Positions 7,620 through 46,833 of a stretch of 64,000 nt of DNA are shown in pieces. The DNA lies in contig ONZJ01000002.1 of the NCBI GenBank assembly GCA_900313005.1, positions 1,566,996 through 1,630,995 of the forward strand, read 5' to 3'. This DNA comes from Rhodobacteraceae bacterium EL129. Lineage in GTDB: Bacteria > Pseudomonadota > Alphaproteobacteria > Rhodobacterales > Rhodobacteraceae. Within the stretch, counting starts at the first letter, position 1. Each line of letters begins with the position of its first letter. Both the position numbers and the translations under genes were made by a program. The notes beneath the pieces were generated by a model, which saw only the letters and a program-made list of their open reading frames with translations, searched no databases and was not told the origin of the DNA.

Positions 7620-9149
7620 TCAGTCGCGCCAAATTGCGGGATTGATCAAGGCGATGATCGCCAGCGTTTCCATCCGGCCCAGGATCATCGCCGCGCATAA
7701 GACGCCTTTTGCGGCCGGGGCCAGTTCCTGCAACGGGATGGGTGCTTCCCCCACCACGCTGGCCAAAGGGCCGGTGGTGGACAGCGTTGCAATGGAAAGG
7801 ATGATGGCACTTTCAAAGTCCTGCCCCAGGGCCGCCAGAGTGATGGAGATCAACGCCAGGGATATGGCAAAGAGCATGAAGAAGATCCACGCTATAAAAG
7901 CCCCCTCGCGACGAATGCGTCGCCGACCCGGTGTGGCGCGCCCCACCGAAGACGGATGTACCAGACGTTCCATTTCACGCTGCCCATTGAGATAAAGCGC
8001 ATAGACCCGCAGGAGCTTTACCCCGCCGGCCGTGGTGGCCACACCGCCCCCGATCAGGGTCAGCCCCAAAAGGATCAGACCGGGGGTTCCCAAGCCGGAC
8101 CAGTTGCGTGCAGTGTCCCAATCCGCACTTTCAAATCCGGTGGTGCTAAGGAAGGACAGCACGGTAAAGGCCCCGCCCCAGAGGGCGCGCAAGGCCTCGT
8201 TCAGGTTGCTGACCTCATCCACATCAAAGGCCGCGAGCCAATGTCTTGAAAACAGCAAAATGGGGATGGAGATGACCAATAGCATCCCCAGTTTGAATTC
8301 AGGATCGCGGTGAAACCCGGCACGGGCCGCCGTGGTGGTTGCCGTATCGGACGAAAATGTCAACCGTGACAGGGCAAAGAGAAGGAACAGGAACATCACG
8401 GCCTCGCCTCCAAATCCTGAGGCCCCGCCGGGCACACCACCAACCGATGAGATACCTGAGGTGGCCATGACCGACATCGCGTGGATGAAGGCGACGAGCG
8501 AACGATCCCCATTCAGAAGCAACAGGAACCACAAGGCCGCGGTCAGACCGACATAGATTGGGGCCAGCTGATAGGTGATCTGCGCCAGCCGTTTGGCGGA
8601 ATTGGCCCGCTCAAAGCGATCCATACGGGCCCCACCCTGCCCGGGTTCTGCGCTGGCCGTGACCTCAAATCCGCCCAGGTTCAGCGGGGCCAGAACCGCA
8701 CTGGCCGAAACCCAGATCAGTAAACCACCCAGCCAACCCACCAATCCACGCCACAAATGCAGGCTGTCCACCAGACGGCCGGGATTCTGATCAAACAGTG
8801 GCAAGCCTGTGGTGGTTATAGCCGAAACCATTTCCACATAGGCATTGAGGAACGTCGTGGTTTCCAGAGCCTCATAAAATGGAAGAGCCAGGAAGGCAGG
8901 TAGCATGGTATAGGCCAGCAAAAGCGACAGAAGGTTGGCAAAATCGCTGTTGTCTGATCGCTCGCGCCCAGACATGGCCAAGCCGATGATCATCACAAAC
9001 GCTGCCCCCAGAACCGAGGCATAAAAGAACGAGCGCGCCACCGAATGATCATCCCGCACCAGCGCATCAATAGCTGGCAACAGCATGACCAGCGCAGACA
9101 CCCCTGTCAGGATCAGGATCAGTGGAAAGGTGAGCAGCTTGCCCAGCAT
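7620..9149 (-). CDS. trkH: Trk potassium uptake channel subunit TrkH
   Basis: 509 residues, very hydrophobic, with the four repeated membrane-pore-membrane units of TrkH/KtrB. Pore signatures include SAITTTGLPLF, MATSGISSVGG, FLSTTGFESADW and TLSTTGPL, each supplying one glycine of the K+ filter. It forms the inner-membrane channel that is gated by TrkA, whose gene ends two bases upstream, so trkA-trkH are one unit. Confidence 0.95.
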   Translation of the reverse strand: MLGKLLTFPLILILTGVSALVMLLPAIDALVRDDHSVARSFFYASVLGAAFVMIIGLAMSGRERSDNSDFANLLSLLLAYTMLPAFLALPFYEALETTTFLNAYVEMVSAITTTGLPLFDQNPGRLVDSLHLWRGLVGWLGGLLIWVSASAVLAPLNLGGFEVTASAEPGQGGARMDRFERANSAKRLAQITYQLAPIYVGLTAALWFLLLLNGDRSLVAFIHAMSVMATSGISSVGGVPGGASGFGGEAVMFLFLLFALSRLTFSSDTATTTAARAGFHRDPEFKLGMLLVISIPILLFSRHWLAAFDVDEVSNLNEALRALWGGAFTVLSFLSTTGFESADWDTARNWSGLGTPGLILLGLTLIGGGVATTAGGVKLLRVYALYLNGQREMERLVHPSSVGRATPGRRRIRREGAFIAWIFFMLFAISLALISITLAALGQDFESAIILSIATLSTTGPLASVVGEAPIPLQELAPAAKGVLCAAMILGRMETLAIIALINPAIWRD

Positions 9150-9151
9150 GA

Positions 9152-10528
9152 TCAGAAAAAGTCGATCGAGACCTGAAGCAGCTGCTCGACCTGCGCCACA
9201 TCAGAGGCCATTGCAAAAATGACGACCACATCGCCGGCTTCGATCTTCAGACCCCCTGTGGGTTTGACGATCTCATCGCCTTTTTTGACCGCCCCCACCA
9301 GCACGCCTTCGGGGAAATCGATGTCGCGGATCGCTGTGCCTGCGATGGTCGAGGTGGACAAGACTTCGGCTTCAATCACCTCGGCCTCGCTGTCTCCGAT
9401 GGAATAGACGCCGCGCACACGTCCATGGCGGATATGGCGCAGGATCGAACTGACGGTGGTGGCACGCGGGTTAATGTAGGCGTCAATGCCCAGCGGTTCC
9501 AGCAAAGGCTGCAAGGTCGGATCGTTGATCAGGCTGATGGCCATGGGACAACCTTCGGCCTTGGCACGGACCGCGGCCAGCATGTTGGTTTTGTCATCGT
9601 CGGTTACGGCCAGAACGGCATCGGCCCGGCCAATTCCCGCCTCGGCCAGCAAAGATGCATCCAACCCGTCGCCATACAAGACGATTGTCCGCTCCAGCGC
9701 TTCGGCGGCCTTTTCGGCGCACATGCGGTTCTTTTCGATGACCTTGGCCCGAATGCGTATTCCGCTTTGTTCCAGTGATTGTGCGACGGCCAGGCCGATA
9801 TTGCCTCCGCCGACAATCACAACGCGTTCTTGTTTGGTTTCGGACTTGCCAAAGACTTCCAGCGTCCGCGGAATATCCTCGACCGGGGCAAAGACGTAGG
9901 CTTCGTCTCCGACGAACAGCTGGTCGCCTGCGTCAGGCGCAAACAGCCGGCCATCCCGGCGCACCGCCAGCACGACGACACGCAGGGTGGAAAAGAGATC
10001 GCTGAGCTGGCGCAAAGGTGTATTCACCACCGGGCATTCCTCGCCCAGACGCAGGCCCATCAATTGGGCTTTCCCGCCCAGAAACCGTTCGGTGTCAAAA
10101 GCCGCAGGGGCCGCGAGGCGCTGCAACGCCGCTTCGGCCACTTCGCGTTCGGGGCTGATCACAACATCAATCGGCATGTGATCACGGCGGTAGAGATCCG
10201 AATAAATGGCATCCAGATACGATTGGCTGCGCAGCCGCGCGATTTTGCGGCTGATCGCAAAGACCGAATGGGCCACCTGACAGGTGACCATATTCACCTC
10301 GTCCGAATGGGTGGCGGCGATGATCATATCCGCATCGCGCGCCCCGGCCCGGTCCAACACATCAGGATAGCTGGCAAACCCTGCCAGACCCTGAACGTCC
10401 AATGTGTCGGTTGCACGGCGCACAAGATCGGGGTTGTTATCAACGACGGTGACGTCGTTCTTTTCCCCGGATAGGTGACGGGCGATTTGCCATCCCACCT
10501 GACCTGCACCACAGATGATCACCTTCAT
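9152..10528 (-). CDS. trkA: Trk system regulatory subunit TrkA
   Basis: 458 residues from ATG 10528, chosen because GAGGAGATGAGG stands just upstream and MKVIICGAGQVGWQIARHL is the family N-terminus. It has two RCK halves, each with a Rossmann NAD/ATP site (GAGQVG at 7-12 and a second VGGGNIG near residue 240) and a C-terminal TrkA-C lobe (VINTPLRQLSDLF; AIRDIDFPEGVLVGAV). It is the cytosolic gate for TrkH. It is divergent from the lipoprotein gene at 10616. Confidence 0.95.
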   Translation of the reverse strand: MKVIICGAGQVGWQIARHLSGEKNDVTVVDNNPDLVRRATDTLDVQGLAGFASYPDVLDRAGARDADMIIAATHSDEVNMVTCQVAHSVFAISRKIARLRSQSYLDAIYSDLYRRDHMPIDVVISPEREVAEAALQRLAAPAAFDTERFLGGKAQLMGLRLGEECPVVNTPLRQLSDLFSTLRVVVLAVRRDGRLFAPDAGDQLFVGDEAYVFAPVEDIPRTLEVFGKSETKQERVVIVGGGNIGLAVAQSLEQSGIRIRAKVIEKNRMCAEKAAEALERTIVLYGDGLDASLLAEAGIGRADAVLAVTDDDKTNMLAAVRAKAEGCPMAISLINDPTLQPLLEPLGIDAYINPRATTVSSILRHIRHGRVRGVYSIGDSEAEVIEAEVLSTSTIAGTAIRDIDFPEGVLVGAVKKGDEIVKPTGGLKIEAGDVVVIFAMASDVAQVEQLLQVSIDFF

Positions 10529-23153: not shown

Positions 23154-23696
23154 ATGGCAGATCAGAGCTATGTGATAGACCGTATGATCTCGGCCAAATC
23201 CATTGCTGCGCGGATTGAGGCTTTGGCGGTGGAGATAAAATCAGAATTTGCAGGCACAGAGCGGTTAATCGTGGTCGGGTTGTTGCGTGGATCGTTTGTG
23301 TTCATCGCCGATCTGGTGCGCGAGTTGGACATGAACGTCGAGGTGGATTTTGTTGAAACCTCATCTTACGGCAACGATATGACATCGAGCCGCGAGGTGC
23401 GCATCCTCAAGGATCTGCGAGGCGAGATCGAAGGGCGCGATGTGTTGGTGGTCGAGGATATCGTTGATACCGGTCACACGCTGACCCATGTGCTGCATCT
23501 GTTGGAAAGCCGCCACCCGGCCAAATTGCGGACAATTGCCCTGCTCGACAAACCCTCTCGCCGTGAAGTGGACATTCGCGCAGATTGGACGGGCTTTGAA
23601 ATTCCCGATGAGTTTGTCGTGGGCTACGGCATCGACTACGCCCAGGCCAACCGCAACCTGCCCTACATCGGTAAAGTGTGCTTTACCAATACTTAA
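23154..23696 (+). CDS. hpt: Hypoxanthine phosphoribosyltransferase
   Basis: 180 residues from ATG 23154 (AAGGGGG upstream). The PRPP loop [14 protein letters not shown], the flexible loop [12 protein letters not shown] and the base-binding [12 protein letters not shown]-like segment ([20 protein letters not shown]) are intact. It salvages hypoxanthine (and often guanine) to the nucleoside monophosphate. It is single, divergent from the COQ10-like gene, and ends 41 bases before the end of the cassette on the other strand. Confidence 0.95.
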
Positions 23697-23737: not shown

Positions 23738-25813
23738 CTAGTATTCAGCCAGGATCGTCAGCCCTTCGCGTGTGGCAAGGGCCATGGGCATAAGCGCCCG
23801 GTCGTACTGCGGGGAAATCCACGGGTTGCAGTTGAGGTTTTGCACCGTTCCTCTGACGCCCCCCCAGCTAAATCGACATTGCCCGATTTGAAGTTGTCTC
23901 GGGTCGTCCTTGATGCCGAACGGGGGTATATGAGGACCAATATCAAATGACTGGTTTGCATCGCGCAAGGTCAATCTGATGTCACAGCTTAAATAGGCGC
24001 GCCCTCTCACGGCTTTAGGGATATAGAGCCACTGATCTCCTAGATGGTCCCCGTCGTCGATTTTAATATCGGGAAACGAACTGACAAATAGCAGGCCACC
24101 ATTGAATGAAACCAATCCGGTCGCGTTGAAACGATGCAGACCCGGACCATAGGTGACTGTCCCGCTTTGTGTTGTGACATCACCAGGCCCGACAAAGACG
24201 TAGTCGGGGTTTCCATCTGATGTCTCGAAACTGGTTGCCGGAACCTGAGGCGGAGCGATGAGGGGTGTCACCTCACACAAGGCCAAGGTGGTGTCATCCA
24301 GAAACGCGGGGCGTTGCAGGGACGATTGTTCTTCGAGCTTCAATGTATCATACAACGTCTGTGTTGGATATTCGCCGTGCTGAACCCAATGCGGATTGGC
24401 GCCCGTATGTAGGTCAGGCCGATCGGGCTGAATGTGTGTGTTTGCTTCTTGTCTCCCATAAGCATAGCCGTGCAAAATCCCATCGTCTTGCAACGCCTTA
24501 CCGAACCGCAGAGCGCGTTCAAGTCTGCTGAAATACGTCCCGCTTCGCCCCGAGCGCAGAGGATTCACCTTCAGCATGACGTATCGATACCATGTCCGGT
24601 ATCGCCTGATCTGTGTGCTCAAAGCGTTGTCGGGCAGTGCATCGATCAAGGCGTATGTTTTCGCGTGGGTGAATGCGTTTGCACTACTTGCGCCCCAGAA
24701 ATAGTAGAGAGCTTTGGTCGCGTCGGTAAACTCCGGTAGGTGCGCCAGTAAGTCGGCCCGGACGAGTTCATGGCTATTGACGTTCCCGGTTCGCATCATT
24801 CGAAACAGGGCATAATGCCCAACAAGGGCCGGGATGTGGTGACCGGTGCTTTCCATGCTCAGCGCATTGCAGCCCGAGGCCATGAAAGACGTGTAGGAAA
24901 TCAGTTCGTTTTCAAAAGCGCCATCATTGCGGATGCCGCCGCGAAAGGGGCTGTATTCATCCTGGGCTGCAATGATGCCATAGCCGCGCAAGCCAACCGA
25001 TTTGACCTTCGCCCCCCAATCTTGCACCAGTTGAATATAGTTGCCACCGAACCCGGTGCTGACCAGCGTATAGATCGACGGTCCATCGATGGTAGGTGCG
25101 TCGCGGTGCGATGCGTAAGCATAAATGCCCAACTCAGCGTCCGGTACGGTTTCTTGCACTTTGGCGACCACAGCATTGGCAAAGGCAACCACTTGATCGC
25201 TGGACCAGATCGCGCCGTCTTGCGGATCAAAATTAGTTCGGCCATCAATCAACCTGTTCAGAACTTCAATGGCCACTCGATCGACCAACGCATCATAATC
25301 GGTTCCCGTTATGTCGAGGTTAAAGCTCGCCCCCGCGTGGCCGATCGTTCCGGTCATATAGGTGGGGTTGGCCGTAAAAAACCCATCGACAGCCTCAATC
25401 GCGGATATGAGCGAAGGCCAGGCGTGACCCGCAGGGCGCCGTCGATCGTTGGCGCAGTTGAGTGCTCTCCACCTGTTGAACGCGGCCTCTTTATAGGTGG
25501 CCCAAGAGGCGTAGCCGTAGTTGTAGAACAGATAGAAATGCGGAAATGCGAACTCTTGCCTCGGCAGTGTTATCCCGCCCGAAGGCAGGGACAATGGCCG
25601 GACTGTCCACTCAGGCGTGTACCAACGATAACCCATCTGGTACATGGCCTCGCTGGCGCCTTGCTCACAAGCCTCGTCAGACCCACCGTAAATGGTCCAG
25701 CCTGAAACAGACCATTCGTTTTCACCATAATCGGAATATCTGCTTTGCGTGGTGAATGCCCTGGTTGGATCAACCAGGTTAAGCTCCTCGTTGAACTCTG
25801 CCGCTATGGTCAT
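23738..25813 (-). CDS. DUF4838-like glycoside hydrolase-type protein of the spike-like cassette
   Basis: 691 residues, no signal peptide. The N-terminal part, with GASEAMYQMGYRWYTPEW, resembles the domain in front of GH67/GH20-type enzymes. The middle, FDPQDGAIWSSD followed by FANAVVAKVQETVPDAELG and IYAYASHRDAPT, follows the DUF4838 pattern (a PnDg motif, then an AY motif). DEYSPFRGGI may carry acidic catalytic residues. The last 150 residues look like a beta-sandwich ending FGIKDDPRQLQIGQC. An action on uronic-acid polysaccharide is only a guess. The start overlaps the fibre gene stop by four bases, so it is made together with it. Confidence 0.6.
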   Translation of the reverse strand: MTIAAEFNEELNLVDPTRAFTTQSRYSDYGENEWSVSGWTIYGGSDEACEQGASEAMYQMGYRWYTPEWTVRPLSLPSGGITLPRQEFAFPHFYLFYNYGYASWATYKEAAFNRWRALNCANDRRRPAGHAWPSLISAIEAVDGFFTANPTYMTGTIGHAGASFNLDITGTDYDALVDRVAIEVLNRLIDGRTNFDPQDGAIWSSDQVVAFANAVVAKVQETVPDAELGIYAYASHRDAPTIDGPSIYTLVSTGFGGNYIQLVQDWGAKVKSVGLRGYGIIAAQDEYSPFRGGIRNDGAFENELISYTSFMASGCNALSMESTGHHIPALVGHYALFRMMRTGNVNSHELVRADLLAHLPEFTDATKALYYFWGASSANAFTHAKTYALIDALPDNALSTQIRRYRTWYRYVMLKVNPLRSGRSGTYFSRLERALRFGKALQDDGILHGYAYGRQEANTHIQPDRPDLHTGANPHWVQHGEYPTQTLYDTLKLEEQSSLQRPAFLDDTTLALCEVTPLIAPPQVPATSFETSDGNPDYVFVGPGDVTTQSGTVTYGPGLHRFNATGLVSFNGGLLFVSSFPDIKIDDGDHLGDQWLYIPKAVRGRAYLSCDIRLTLRDANQSFDIGPHIPPFGIKDDPRQLQIGQCRFSWGGVRGTVQNLNCNPWISPQYDRALMPMALATREGLTILAEY

Positions 25814-28800
25814 AGCGACAGACCAATGGTGTTGCCGAAATATGTCTCAAGTGCTGCGCGATCATCCGCAACATTCGCCCCGACCACAACAAGCGCCTGA
25901 TAGATTGCCCCGGCTGAATGATCCGAGAATGATGGGTGAACCCGTCTTGCGAGGGCTGTCAGCTTGTTCGTATTGGTGGTGTCGAACCACTTTGATCCAG
26001 CCTTGGTCGGCGCGCCGACAAGCACACCATTCACATAAATGCGGAACGTTTTGTCGGCCTCCGTTGCCACAACTGTGACCACGGACAAACCCGTTGGGGA
26101 AATGGGCTGAGTGGCTTTGCCGTTGAAATCATTCGACGTGTGGCGAATGAGGTCATGCTCGATATTGATGAATTCGCCATTAGTGCTGTTCGCATTGGCA
26201 AAGGACAAGACGGTGCCCGTCGCAGCCGAGAAATCAGCGGCAACCATCATCAGAATATCGCCGTCTGCGGCGAAGGCATCCGTGAGGACACCGTCGTTGG
26301 ATCCGTCACCAAACACGTTGTCGTAAGGGGTGTCCGTGTCGTAGGTTAGCTGTTCCGCAGTTGTTGCCTGCTTCAAAGGGTTGCCGTTGCCGGAGGCATC
26401 CGCGATGCAGCCAACCGGATCACCATCGGCGGTGACTGCCGTGGTGGCCGTGCTGTCTTGGAACAGATCACCAACCACATCGGGTCGCCACCAACCACCC
26501 GCCTTGCCACCGTCAAACACCGTGGCGGGGCTATAGGCCCCGGTGCCCGACGTGGCAGTCACAGCGCCCTTGGCGTTTGTCGCGGTCACATCACAGACCA
26601 TTGTATTGAGATAAGCGCTGTCACCTGTAACGGGAGTGTACGACGCGCTTGTTGCCCCCGAGATAGCCGCTCCACCTGCGGTCTCGCGCCATTGGTAAGC
26701 ATAGGTGATCGCAGATGTGCTGTCCCATGTGCCACCATCACAAGTCACGGCCACACCGACGGTTGGAGTTCCATCCAAAGCAGGCGTGACAGAATTAAAG
26801 GCGAAGGCCTCTCCCGCATCATTATCAATGCTATGCTCCACCGGATAAGCGATTGTTTCAGTGTCTGAAAGCGTGGACCCAACCGCCTGTGCCGCTTCAC
26901 CGAAGGAAACAAGAATGCTCTCTCCCGCGCCTGCGTTGGTCCGCAGGTCGCTCGCTGTCGTCAGGATCACTTGCGCGGATGTGCTTCCCTGTACCGCGGA
27001 TGCAACAGCCACCGTGCCAGAAGTGTCCTCGACCGCCCAACCTGTGGCATCAGCGTGGTTTTGAACCGCACGATCAAAAGTCACGGTGATCTCGCGCACG
27101 CCCGTGACGTTGATCGTCGAAATGGTCGGGCCGTCTGGCGTGGCTGATCCACCATAGAAGTGATGCTCAATCGCGCGCCACCACCGCGCGCCACCAAGCT
27201 GTTGCTGGGCAACCCCAGCCGGAGCCTTGCCGAAGTGCACACCGTCGCCAAAATCAAGGTCAATCCATGACGGGCCGCGCAAGATGTCGGCATCCGTGGC
27301 AATCGCCCTTTTCTGAGCGGCGCGCAGATTTTCCAGGTTGGTGGTTTCCGCCAGCACCTCGCCCACAAGCGAGATAACCATCTGAACGCCAGCGAAATTT
27401 TCAGCCTCAAGCTGATAGGCGTCAATCAGATCTTTCAGGTTCTGTTCGTAGAAGGTGTTCGCGTCGATCACATCGTTCGGGCCTTGTTCCCAGATCAGGG
27501 CTTTGAAGCCGCCTGCATCAATCGCGTTCAGGCGCGTCAAGGCTGTGCTGTAATAATAGTCCGTGTTGCCGTTCGTGGGGTTTGGGTGCCAGGATCCGCC
27601 TGCGCTGCCTCCAAGGTCAGGCCGGAACGCTGAACCCGACGACCCGTATTGAATGAAGACCGGCGGAACACCCGCCGCATCCAGACCTGCCGCCAGAGAC
27701 GGCCAGATCGAGGTTTGATGTGTGGTTACGTTGAAGCTCGTGCCGTCGAAAATGAGCCAATCATAATTCGTCTTAGTATAGGTGTCGTTGTTGTCAGCAA
27801 GACCAGCGGCCATGCTATCTCCCAGCAACGCAAAGACGTCCGTCACGGTCACGTCATCATGGGTGGCCACAGCTCCCGGCCCGTTCACCGGGCGGATTTG
27901 AAGCTGACCCTGCGCAAGATAGTTTGCCGGAATGTCCAGCGTGCCGGACCAGGCGTTTGCACCGATTGTGGATGACGCCATCTGCACCCACTCGCTCGTA
28001 TCCACGCGCCATTCGATGGCGACGGGATCTTCGCTGAGGGAGTAAGTCCCAGCCAGCGTGATATTCGCTCGGTCGCGTTGGAAGGCCTGCCGGGGTTTGA
28101 GCGGTGTTGTCAGGGCGATCGTACCCGTGATCACGCTGCCGGCCGCAACTTGCAGGGATGCGATGGTGTAGGACACAAGAGAACCTTGGCTGTTTGTCGC
28201 GGTTTCCGAACGACGTAGATATTTGGTCTCATCTGCAACCACTGCCGTGTAATCCGCAGAAGTTGCTCCGCTAATATTGGACCAGCCGGTCAATCCATCA
28301 TTGGAGCGCTGCCACTGATAGCTTCCAATGGCGGGGGTCGGATTGCCCGTGTATGTCCCGTCGTTTCCGGTGAGGGTGAACCCAACCTGCGGGGTGCCCG
28401 AGACTGTCGGCGCGGATGCCAGGGCGGGCGGCGAAAGCGTCGGCCCTGCATCTGTTGTGAAACTCGCCGCTGTCGTTTCTACTTCTGATAGGTTCCCTGC
28501 AGCGTCTGCATGAATCGCATGACCCCAGTAAGAGGTTGTGGCCAATAGTGCGCTGTTGCCCGTCAGGTTTTGCACTCCAGCCGCAGTGACGGCCCGGTTA
28601 AGCAAAGCATCTGCTGCCACGTCGCCGGTGTGGCTCTGACCGGCGGCAATCTGTGCGGCAGTGGGCGGGGTCGCAGAGGTGGTGATCACCACATCCAACA
28701 AACCTTCGCCCGTGTCGGTGTTGACCGTGCCAGCCCAGTTGTCATCGCCATCCTCAGACAGATCAAGCGATGAAATGAAGGGGGCTGTCACATCTGCCGG

Positions 28801-29226
28801 GATGAAATCGCCCGTCTCCTGCACAGCCGAGACCGCCAAATTACTGTCGCGGAACACGGCATAGGCTCGGTAGGTCTCGCCTTCAATCAAACCCGTGATG
28901 CCGCCCGCAAATGTCTGCAGCCCCGTGGACCCGACGCCTTGGTTGTGATCCCAGGCCGGAGTGGCGCCGCTGCCATCCTGTCCGGCAATGATCTGTGCAG
29001 CAGTTGGTGGAATGGTCCCCGTTGTGGTGTTGATCACCACAGCGAAGACATCCCCGGCGTTTTTGTTGACGGACACCGTCAGCGTTGCTGAGGTTTCATC
29101 CAGCACCGTTGCGATCAAATTACCGGCGGCTGGCAAGGTGGGGCCAGACCCGCCGTTCCCCAAGGATCGCACACGGCCGAGGCGGTTGTAGCTTAAGCGG
29201 GATTCAGACAAGCGGGACTGGCGCAT
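25810..29226 (-). CDS. Large fibre/spike protein with Ig-like, SGNH esterase and lectin-like domains
   Basis: 1138 residues without signal peptide. In order: a short basic repeat head (RQSRLSESRLSYNRLGRVRS); two FnIII-like modules (about 30-145, 148-258), each with PPTAAQI and AGQ; an Ig-like module with SYQWQRSNDG (265-358); a linker; an SGNH hydrolase (about 462-690) with block I GDSM at 469, block III GPND at 582 and block V DGVH at 661; further Ig-like modules, one with YAYQWRETAGG; and a concanavalin-like C-terminus from about 930. The layout is that of phage tail or head fibres that bind and deacetylate surface sugar. It lies 2 bases after the small upstream gene. Confidence 0.65.
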   Translation of the reverse strand: MRQSRLSESRLSYNRLGRVRSLGNGGSGPTLPAAGNLIATVLDETSATLTVSVNKNAGDVFAVVINTTTGTIPPTAAQIIAGQDGSGATPAWDHNQGVGSTGLQTFAGGITGLIEGETYRAYAVFRDSNLAVSAVQETGDFIPADVTAPFISSLDLSEDGDDNWAGTVNTDTGEGLLDVVITTSATPPTAAQIAAGQSHTGDVAADALLNRAVTAAGVQNLTGNSALLATTSYWGHAIHADAAGNLSEVETTAASFTTDAGPTLSPPALASAPTVSGTPQVGFTLTGNDGTYTGNPTPAIGSYQWQRSNDGLTGWSNISGATSADYTAVVADETKYLRRSETATNSQGSLVSYTIASLQVAAGSVITGTIALTTPLKPRQAFQRDRANITLAGTYSLSEDPVAIEWRVDTSEWVQMASSTIGANAWSGTLDIPANYLAQGQLQIRPVNGPGAVATHDDVTVTDVFALLGDSMAAGLADNNDTYTKTNYDWLIFDGTSFNVTTHQTSIWPSLAAGLDAAGVPPVFIQYGSSGSAFRPDLGGSAGGSWHPNPTNGNTDYYYSTALTRLNAIDAGGFKALIWEQGPNDVIDANTFYEQNLKDLIDAYQLEAENFAGVQMVISLVGEVLAETTNLENLRAAQKRAIATDADILRGPSWIDLDFGDGVHFGKAPAGVAQQQLGGARWWRAIEHHFYGGSATPDGPTISTINVTGVREITVTFDRAVQNHADATGWAVEDTSGTVAVASAVQGSTSAQVILTTASDLRTNAGAGESILVSFGEAAQAVGSTLSDTETIAYPVEHSIDNDAGEAFAFNSVTPALDGTPTVGVAVTCDGGTWDSTSAITYAYQWRETAGGAAISGATSASYTPVTGDSAYLNTMVCDVTATNAKGAVTATSGTGAYSPATVFDGGKAGGWWRPDVVGDLFQDSTATTAVTADGDPVGCIADASGNGNPLKQATTAEQLTYDTDTPYDNVFGDGSNDGVLTDAFAADGDILMMVAADFSAATGTVLSFANANSTNGEFINIEHDLIRHTSNDFNGKATQPISPTGLSVVTVVATEADKTFRIYVNGVLVGAPTKAGSKWFDTTNTNKLTALARRVHPSFSDHSAGAIYQALVVVGANVADDRAALETYFGNTIGLSL

Positions 29227-29228
29227 GA

Positions 29229-29519
29229 TCAGGCGGCTCCTGTCATTACTGTGACATCAGATGGGTCGCCGGCGGTGGCTAGAAAAAGCCGCTCTCCATC
29301 TTTCAGGGTGATGTCATAGGTGTTGTCATCACTCCACGCAGGTTGGATCTTGTCGCCCAGATCTACAGAGAATGGCGGCAGCGTATCGTCATCCATTTTT
29401 GCGACGTATAACGCGACATCGTCACTTGTGTTTACGATCCGAACGGCCGTGTCACCGACCGCAGAAATCCGCCCGGATGTGCTCCAATTGCTTGGAATTG
29501 TCAGTCTTGAGCTTGCCAT
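29229..29519 (-). CDS. Small structural-type protein heading the cassette (possible spike base)
   Basis: 96 residues from ATG 29519 with AGGAGA 8 bases upstream. It is predicted all-beta: SRLTIPSNWSTSGRISAVGD, VRIVNTSDDVALYVAKMDD, GDKIQPAWSDDNTYDITLKD, ERLFLATAGDPSDVTVM. Proteins of this size and pattern are found as capsid or tail decoration next to fibre genes. The Rhodobacter capsulatus gene transfer agent has a small head-spike base (GhsA) next to a larger spike fibre (GhsB); the order here matches, but homology was not tested. Confidence 0.55.
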   Translation of the reverse strand: MASSRLTIPSNWSTSGRISAVGDTAVRIVNTSDDVALYVAKMDDDTLPPFSVDLGDKIQPAWSDDNTYDITLKDGERLFLATAGDPSDVTVMTGAA

Positions 29520-29540
29520 TTGAATGTCTCCTTTTCTCAC

Positions 29541-30001
29541 CAGAATGGGTCTGGCACCCTACCCGATCACAGCGACCCCGATGATTGCCGTCCTCTGGTC
29601 TCGGCAGATCTACAGGCGGCGCAGGGACGCGGTCTTTGGGTCGCACTCACGCATCCCCACGCCCTTCGGCTTTGCGAGTGGCGCACCCAATGCAACGCGC
29701 TATTTAACAATCGGATCAATCCCTTACAGAAGTGTGGGCACACCGTTCGCTACGCTGATCAAGGCGCGCACTCACTGGTTCTATTAGCATTTGTCTGAAA
29801 TCTTTCGGGCGGCTTAACAGGGCGTTCACCGCCCCTTCATCCCCCTGTTTTTTGCGTGATTTTCACCGACAATCGATCGCATCAGCGCGCAGCAATGGCC
29901 TTCCTGGATCATACCGGGGCAGATCAAAATTAAACTGTCCTCTCCCAAATCTCGGATGCGGGAAAGACGGAAACGTTCAGGCTTCAATTGAAAAGGAGGA
30001 G
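29541..30001. other. Intergenic stretch between the cassette and tRNA-Arg
   Basis: About 460 bases. A plus-strand frame of 87 codons (29524-29787) overlaps the small cassette gene start, has no ribosome site of note and resembles no family, so it is not called a gene. The cassette promoter should lie here on the minus strand. No integrase, no repeat of the tRNA 3' end and no terminator were recognised. Confidence 0.4.
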
Positions 30002-30078
<77 letters not shown>

Positions 30079-41301: not shown

Positions 41302-41567
41302 TGCTTTTGTCCTTCACTTAGAAGCCTGTCCTGTTAAGAGGATCATCTTGCTGAAAAGCGACCAGAATTGGGCAACTGCAAGGAGATTGCTTGCCGTTTT
41401 AATACAGGCTTAACGATTGGGGCCTGCCCCCTTGCCCTGTGGGCTCATCCGTCGTATACGCCACCGTCCTTTCGCAGTTTTTATGAACCGCGCAGTCTCT
41501 CGTGGATGGGTCGCGGAAGGATCAGGCCCTCCTATGAAATGCGCCTTGACAGAAATGGAATACCCTC

Positions 41568-46423: not shown

Positions 46424-46833
46424 TGAGACGGCTTGCGTCACTTCTGGTCATGGGGCCGAAGCGCCATGTGATGTGCCATATGCCAAAGCTTGAGTTCTGT
46501 TGCAACTGATTAAATGCGGGTTTTTTCACATTCCTGAGACGGTTGGGTTTTTGCGACAATGTCCGGGCAATGAGACCGACGATGTCAGTGACGCTGAGAC
46601 GCCTTAAATCGCGACTACGGCACCCCTTTTAACCGGAAAATGTGTGTCAATGCCTGAGCTTTTGCTGGGCCGTCGGGCTTGCCGGCTCATTTTTGCTTCA
46701 GAATAATGTATACAGCCGATTTACCATAGCATCGCCCCAGCCTCGCCTTATATGCGGCCAAAAATCCGGTTTAATACAGCATTAAAGGCCTATATCAAAA
46801 AAATTGGCCGAATATTGAGAGCTGGATCGCAAC
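46424..46833. other. Gene-free stretch between tRNA-Thr and the sulfotransferase-like gene
   Basis: 410 bases, A+T-richer than average, no convincing reading frame. It must hold the tRNA promoter (minus strand) and that of the next gene (plus strand). GCCG at 46669 and CGGC at 46683 followed by TCATTTTT could form a weak hairpin. Confidence 0.4.

Follow-up and report, generated by a model that had tools for sequence, protein, structure and literature searches.

A putative phage-derived virion-spike cassette with a GhsA/GhsB-like plan between hpt and tRNA-Arg in a Rhodobacteraceae genome

The closest described counterpart of the locus analysed here is the head spike of the Rhodobacter capsulatus gene transfer agent (RcGTA), which is encoded by ghsA and ghsB (Rcc01079/Rcc01080), a small base gene with the fibre gene immediately downstream of it, both away from the gene transfer agent (GTA) cluster. 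According to the available text of PMC7296036, five hydrophobic residues at the N terminus of the 325-residue fibre, spaced with a period of two, plug into the base pentamer. The available parts of PMC10218006, PMC7296036, PMC9638019 and PMC13420450 further describe that ghsAB adjoins capsule genes in R. capsulatus (PMC10218006), that RcGTA uses unlinked spike genes (PMC7296036, PMC9638019), that ghsAB and the tail fibre, both unlinked, are under CtrA/GafA (PMC9638019) and that tspA is another unlinked spike gene (PMC13420450). Here we analysed a window of 64,000 nucleotides (nt) from Rhodobacteraceae bacterium EL129 (contig ONZJ01000002.1; G000:C2:1566996-1630995, G000 being this genome), which contains a three-gene cassette that therefore lies near C2:1.59 Mb. 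We consider it rather probable that these genes form a stand-alone virion-spike cassette of phage origin that is GhsA/GhsB-like but works with a different base and a different anchor.

The list of open reading frames (ORFs) in the window contains three tightly coupled minus-strand ORFs of 96, 1138 and 691 residues. The base stop and the fibre ATG are separated by 2 nt, and the fibre stop overlaps the start of the third gene by 4 nt, as the first-pass annotation had read them, including a DUF4838-like third protein. The base ORF, at 29229-29540, would encode 103 residues from a GTG start and 96 from the ATG at 29519; a Shine-Dalgarno sequence, AAGGAG, lies 8 nt upstream of this ATG. In window coordinates, the cassette comprises:

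29229-29519, minus strand: base gene, 96 residues, small all-beta protein of a family named win96 here (ORF list, Shine-Dalgarno sequence, homologues, alignment and AlphaFold2 model).
25810-29226, minus strand: fibre gene, 1138 residues, with anchor, FN3/Ig-like repeats, SGNH/SASA esterase, Ig-like and LamG-like C-terminal parts (ORF list, Pfam, PHROG).
29149-29226, minus strand: N-terminal anchor peptide of the fibre, MRQSRLSESRLSYNRLGRVRSLGNGG (period-5 test).
27157-27849, minus strand: SGNH/SASA carbohydrate-esterase domain, approximately residues 460-690, limits estimated (Pfam and motifs).
25813-26538, minus strand: C-terminal LamG-like domain, residues about 897-1138, also present in fibres paired with GhsA-type bases (the LamG label is weak).
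23738-25813, minus strand: third gene, 691 residues, DUF4838-like, probably of glycosidase type, without a signal-like N terminus (Pfam, homologue L051, hydropathy).

Directly before fibre genes, homologues of the base occur in a siphophage, a prophage and a few chromosomes. Rhks_54 of Rhodovulum phage vB_RhkS_P1 is 32% identical to the base over 88 residues (expectation value (E) 0.2 in the whole phage collection), and a two-row profile of these proteins found clear homologues in the family genomes G235 and G222 and two in G355 (E 1e-16 to 6e-7). A six-row profile reached a prophage in IMG/VR (L048; E 3e-12, with the candidate stretches as reference) as well as L049 and L050 in GTDB genomes, L050 being Sedimentitalea arenosa. 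M1, W12, R17, A20, N30, P48, L72, G75, E76 and A81 are invariant in the eight-row alignment. The AlphaFold2 model of the base, made from a four-sequence alignment, has eight predicted strands and a mean pLDDT (predicted local distance difference test) of 82 (66-70 in the other four models), in agreement with the first-pass description of an all-beta protein; the base of the RcGTA head spike is all-beta as well. Five of the eight aligned members, namely those in the window, G235, L048, L049 and phage P1, are directly followed by a fibre. In G235 the pair lies between tRNA-Leu and tRNA-Asp with a 1-nt gap before a 534-residue fibre, and in L049, near ParA/ParB, a 7-nt gap precedes a 1256-residue fibre with bacterial Ig/cadherin domains. 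In the L048 prophage, base and fibre overlap by 1 nt; the 607-residue fibre is followed by a 989-residue protein and then, by reading, by holin-like, lysozyme-like and integrase-like ORFs, and a polyvalent protein with LPD39 lies upstream. The Rhodovulum phage pair, Rhks_54/Rhks_55, comes after a tail component gene and two hypothetical genes. Unlike the cassette, it belongs to a complete phage, at the tail end; no DUF4838 gene was seen there, and its fibre body is mostly unrelated to that of the window (best piece 25% identical over 109 residues, E 0.02).

A base-like domain followed, beyond a break in the frame, by a right-handed beta-helix (PF13229, E 5e-8) was seen at G355:C8 (L038, approximately 8022-10093), in a polysaccharide locus with UDP-glucose dehydrogenase, polysaccharide pyruvyl transferase, ManC and glycosyltransferases, which suggests that spikes may carry a fused base domain. 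Other searches returned little: PHROGs had no match for the base, plasmids gave two weak matches (E 9), and the best PDB sequence match for any of the three proteins had E 0.18. Marginal base matches (four at E 0.002-0.01, seven in another search) were not used, nor were the viral matches L010-L012, which cover only a 28-residue stretch (inside a 503-residue protein in L010 and L012).

The fibre starts MRQSRLSESRLSYNRLGRVRSLG, with Arg at positions 5, 10, 15 and 20 and hydrophobic residues at 1, 6, 11, 16 and 22, giving a five-residue period of the form R-hydrophobic-x-x-x. The corresponding N termini are MMNGGRFNTGRFAAGRFGAGRFSG in G235, MFRAGISGRLKGSRMSGARTAGSRLIG in L048, MPKSFATQKFSGLG in L049 and VSGRFSAGRFAAGG in the Rhodovulum phage, the last read from a GTG start overlapping the base stop. 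Rhks_55 has 611 residues as annotated and 630 from this earlier GTG; the annotated start is probably 57 nt too late (7324 instead of 7267), as the earlier GTG adds the anchor peptide and makes base and fibre overlap in GTGA. We scored periodicity as hydrophobic and basic pairs in the first 26 residues, giving the phage sequence one extra upstream residue. The five N termini together score 22 at period 5 and 0-8 at periods 2-4 and 6-8, and none of 20,000 shuffles reached 22 at any period from 2 to 8. The window and G235 fibres each have five hydrophobic residues about five apart (counting M1 or M2), and the RcGTA star also has five, a parallel that is suggestive only. For comparison we read 30 GhsA-type loci, 19 of which have a base-like ORF; five were dropped as wrong-frame (L082, L084, L095, L100, L106), leaving 14. 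A fibre-like ORF follows the base in 11 of these (L083, L085, L087-L090, L094, L098, L099, L103, L104; not in L091, L093 or L096), and by eye all 11 N termini carry short-step hydrophobic repeats, such as MLGLGLG and MYGPGIGINIG. The regular N-terminal hydrophobic repeat is common to both kinds of fibre, with a step of five and Arg in the cassette versus a step of two and Gly in GhsB.

The body of the fibre appears to be directed at polysaccharide, as in GhsB. It matches PF03629 (SASA) with E 4e-5 and 23.8 bits, just under the Pfam cut-off of 24.8, and PHROG 1407 with E 6e-7, and the SGNH motifs are intact and in order: GDS at 469-471, GPND at 582-585 and DGVH at 661-664. Its Ig-like repeats are related to those in the G235 fibre. 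The LamG label comes from a match below cut-off (E 0.004) in one of three related fibres scanned. Six other genus genomes have fibre matches, to the C-terminal domain in five, all from other species (G001, G072, G080, G082, G085), and to the Ig-like part in the sixth (G097). Those five matches begin 20-62 nt after a GhsA-type profile match, and this C-terminal domain, common to the cassette fibre and to GhsA-paired fibres of the same genus, appears by sequence to be the strongest link to GhsA/GhsB. In the four of these GhsA-type pairs with both starts readable (L125, L126, L128, L129), the ORFs of base and fibre share 4 nt. Three loci (L126, L127 and L129, in G072, G082 and G080) have a GhsA-type base with a short LamG-like fibre; Pfam identifies sugar-transferase, glycosyltransferase and polysaccharide-synthesis genes around L126 and L127 and reading shows the same around L129, and no polysaccharide genes were seen next to the pair on reading L125 and L128. 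The C-terminal domain recurs in 2 of 11 further GhsA-paired fibres (L088, L098), and a Pfam scan of ten such fibres found SASA in one (L083) and GDSL, below cut-off, in one (L094). A comparable annotation exists in phage RcapMu, where RcapMu56 is a DUF303-containing phage tail protein, DUF303 being the older name of the SASA family; there it is a separate gene, whereas here the esterase lies inside the fibre, and the two have no direct sequence match. On reading the fibre-matching viral contigs L022 and L023 we noticed no homologous base; L024-L026 were left out.

The third gene encodes a protein that matches PF16126 (DUF4838) with E 9e-4 and 18.8 bits (cut-off 26.6). Its residues 41-241 align at 24% identity to L051, a 907-residue protein with DUF4838 (E 2e-24) and a GH2 sugar-binding domain, and it lacks the hydrophobic N-terminal stretch of L051. 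It had no match in viral contigs or phages, and our literature search returned no paper linking DUF4838 with phage.

These data lead us to propose, with moderate confidence, a mechanism that combines a ring, a peptide plug and polysaccharide deacetylation and cleavage. The 96-residue protein would form a small ring on a particle, and one 1138-residue fibre would be held in it by its N-terminal peptide, with M1, L6, L11, L16 and L22 plugging into pockets of successive base subunits, in the manner of the RcGTA head-fibre peptide IALGLGLGL, whose step is two. The Ig-like and LamG-like domains may then bind surface polysaccharide, the SGNH/SASA esterase would deacetylate it and the DUF4838-type protein may cut the glycan. 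The three genes would have entered the interval from hpt to tRNA-Arg together. The cassette differs from GhsA/GhsB in its fibre of 1138 rather than 325 residues, which is predicted to be enzyme-armed, in its third gene and in the lack of capsule genes beside it. It also resembles the RcGTA tailspike TspA (Rcc02623), an unlinked polysaccharide-directed enzyme made with the GTA particle in the available text of PMC13420450; unlike the cassette, TspA is described there as the product of a single gene, a trimeric beta-helix with an N-terminal beta-sandwich and without a small base.

The first-pass annotation had suggested a relative of the RcGTA spike or a tail-fibre module, and we compared the base with GhsA. 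Among phage proteins, RcapNL_29 matches Rcc01079 (6tb9) with E 3e-30 and RcapMu57 does so with E 1e-5, and their profile therefore stands for the GhsA family. It matched 124 of 388 family genomes and, within the genus, 17 of 83. Neither search found a match in G000, and 66 of the 83 genus genomes, our own included, lack one. G222, G235 and G355 are outside the 124 positives, in a listing that leaves open whether all three were drawn. In a ten-sequence set, phmmer gave the base E 0.7 and 0.8 against RcapNL_29 and RcapMu57. The hhalign probability for the two families was 0.5% with two GhsA-type sequences, and 1.7% (local) and 0.1% (global) with 22, these being the usable ones of 45 candidates (38 loci, 5 longer loci, 2 phages). 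The eight-row base profile found no 6tb9 chain at E <= 10; RcapNL_29 weakly matches the 'Spike Base Protein' 8cjz (E 0.11). The portion of the R4C roseophage literature available here describes no head-spike base.

Several of our results weigh against the spike-cassette reading. Given the profile-profile probability of 1.7%, the base has no detectable sequence homology to GhsA and is not a member of that family, so its relatedness to the RcGTA spike is limited to the plan and the fibre modules, and membership by sequence was rejected. Fold searches with the base model gave common beta folds (C1q/TNF, cupin, GOLD, viral jelly rolls; best Z 7.3, no Foldseek E <= 0.001); the rows returned did not include the RcGTA base, an absence to which we give no weight in either direction. 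We devised the anchor test once the pattern had already been noticed. When each N terminus was shuffled singly, the numbers of 20,000 shuffles reaching its score at period 5 were 52 for the window, 0 for G235, 891 for L048, 704 for the Rhodovulum phage and 16577 for L049, and at any period from 2 to 8 they were 357, 3, 5473, 4720 and 20000, respectively. The joint signal therefore comes mainly from the window and G235, and L049 adds nothing. Two of the eight aligned bases, in G222 (the same locus as L050) and on G355:C1, have no adjacent fibre. For the third protein, the DUF4838 score does not reach the curated cut-off, and the AlphaFold model was too poor to use (pLDDT 31). Finally, that the proteins are carried by a particle, be it the resident GTA or a phage, is something we infer.

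The cassette occupies an interval that is variable among relatives, bordered as follows:

23157-23696, plus strand: hpt (phosphoribosyltransferase), left border of the insertion.
29520-30001, minus strand: leader of about 480 bp from the tRNA 3' end to the base gene, presumed promoter region (no promoter-like site is listed within it).
30002-30078, minus strand: tRNA-Arg(CCG), right border, its 3' end facing the cassette, as first annotated.

The 6.3 kb between hpt and tRNA-Arg(CCG) is filled by the three ORFs. Matches to hpt were found in 81 of 83 genus genomes, and among the 30 loci listed, 29 besides our own, hpt directly adjoins tRNA-Arg(CCG) at six from other species (L061, L062, L063, L066, L067, L078) and lies about 1.1 kb from it at two (L056, L073). 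All seven of these eight loci that reach far enough share our sufS-side flank, L062 being cut by a contig end; at the other 21 no tRNA-Arg(CCG) was seen within the roughly 1.5 kb examined. Because hpt and the tRNA are adjacent in six relatives and 6.3 kb apart here, the cassette is an insertion. Its distribution is sporadic: the third gene was found in 1 of 36 genus genomes (1 of 60 genomes in all) and the full-length fibre in 1 of 84, and a search of 394 family genomes at E <= 0.01 found the base in four, our own included. The flanks read as housekeeping genes, with ispDF, cinA and hpt on the left and the suf operon on the right, and none of these neighbours is a capsule gene. As side observations, the interval holds a 299-residue exported-looking protein in L056 (2188-3087) and an oxidoreductase-like ORF in L073, and may be a small insertion hotspot. 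The tRNA-Arg(CCG) differs from that of congeners in the acceptor stem (CCATAG versus CCCAAG on the printed strand), and in our copy the 5' side is complementary to the 3' side.

The neighbourhood of a tRNA 3' end is a usual place for integration, and the cassette could be what is left of the tail-fibre region of a decayed prophage or of a phage satellite, its ORFs intact but used by no particle. We regard this as unlikely, although the homologous pairs at a phage tail-fibre end and before prophage lysis-like genes, the position beside a tRNA and the sporadic distribution of base and third gene would all fit. The cassette is a complete three-gene unit with clean couplings, and in agreement with the first-pass annotation we noticed no integrase, capsid or lysis gene among the ORFs read by eye at 20-34 kb (at least 80 residues) and 36-52 kb (at least 160 residues). 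A search near the hpt side did not turn up a second copy of the tRNA end; a duplicated attachment site was rejected, the 27-nt repeat D1 lying inside the third gene and being 74% alike, and the cassette does not look like an integrase-borne island at a tRNA. In addition, L035 and L049 contain, by reading, similar pairs outside evident prophages. Far less probable is a secreted or surface adhesin or a glycan-degrading operon that serves the cell itself. Secreted proteins, too, contain Ig-like, LamG-like, esterase and DUF4838 domains, and the related L051 has a hydrophobic signal-like stretch; however, none of the three proteins has a signal-like N terminus, the highest 12-residue hydropathy means in the first 40 residues being 1.28, 0.77 and 0.43 versus 1.88 in L051. 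The two larger proteins lack RTX repeats, hydropathy does not exceed 1.6 in any 19-residue window, the fibre begins with a charged repeat, and the homologous pairs are phage genes. With homologous phage pairs and no sign of export by hydropathy, a spike remains the better interpretation.

The first-pass annotation had also raised a GTA head-spike locus and a search for a GTA cluster elsewhere in the genome. An RcGTA-type cluster is indeed present about 405 kb from the cassette, with a GTA_TIM profile match at C2:2001453-2002343 inside a run of GTA-like genes (the run by reading and order only). That the cassette is the working head spike of this resident GTA, in place of ghsAB, seems doubtful to us. 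The cluster itself, the lack of a GhsA-type match in this genome, the C-terminal domain common to GhsA-paired fibres of the genus and the precedent of unlinked RcGTA spike genes (PMC7296036 and PMC9638019, as far as their available text goes) all speak for it. However, absence of ghsA is common in the genus, the full-length fibre was found in none of the 83 other genus genomes, and the presence of GTA_TIM in all three other base-positive genomes (G222, G235, G355) carries no weight because GTA clusters are frequent in this family. The CtrA-site consensus is TTAA-N7-TTAA, and in a search for full sites none was found near the cassette. A GTA role is held with low confidence. A broader and quite improbable proposal is that the cassette represents a second, non-homologous GTA head-spike system, with an arginine-hydrophobic step-five anchor, an esterase-armed fibre and a recruited glycosidase, that replaces ghsAB where it is lacking, GTA spikes being interchangeable, capsule-matched cassettes from phage tail-fibre modules.

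If the phage-derived spike cassette is what we propose, the base with a repeated-peptide anchor, known from one cryo-electron microscopy structure, would be a docking rule of at least two unrelated base families, and gene order together with N-terminal periodicity could serve to recognise spikes that sequence homology misses. GTAs or phages might then exchange capsule-specific spikes armed with enzymes in the form of small cassettes, which would bear on the host range of GTA-mediated transfer.

Two further observations touch on GTA biology. G222 has two GTA_TIM matches (C2 and C8) and possibly two GTA-like clusters. In the window, two full TTAA-N7-TTAA sites lie at 41399-41413 and 46771-46785, unrelated to the cassette (two versus 0.17 expected, a number that 3 of 100 shuffles reached).

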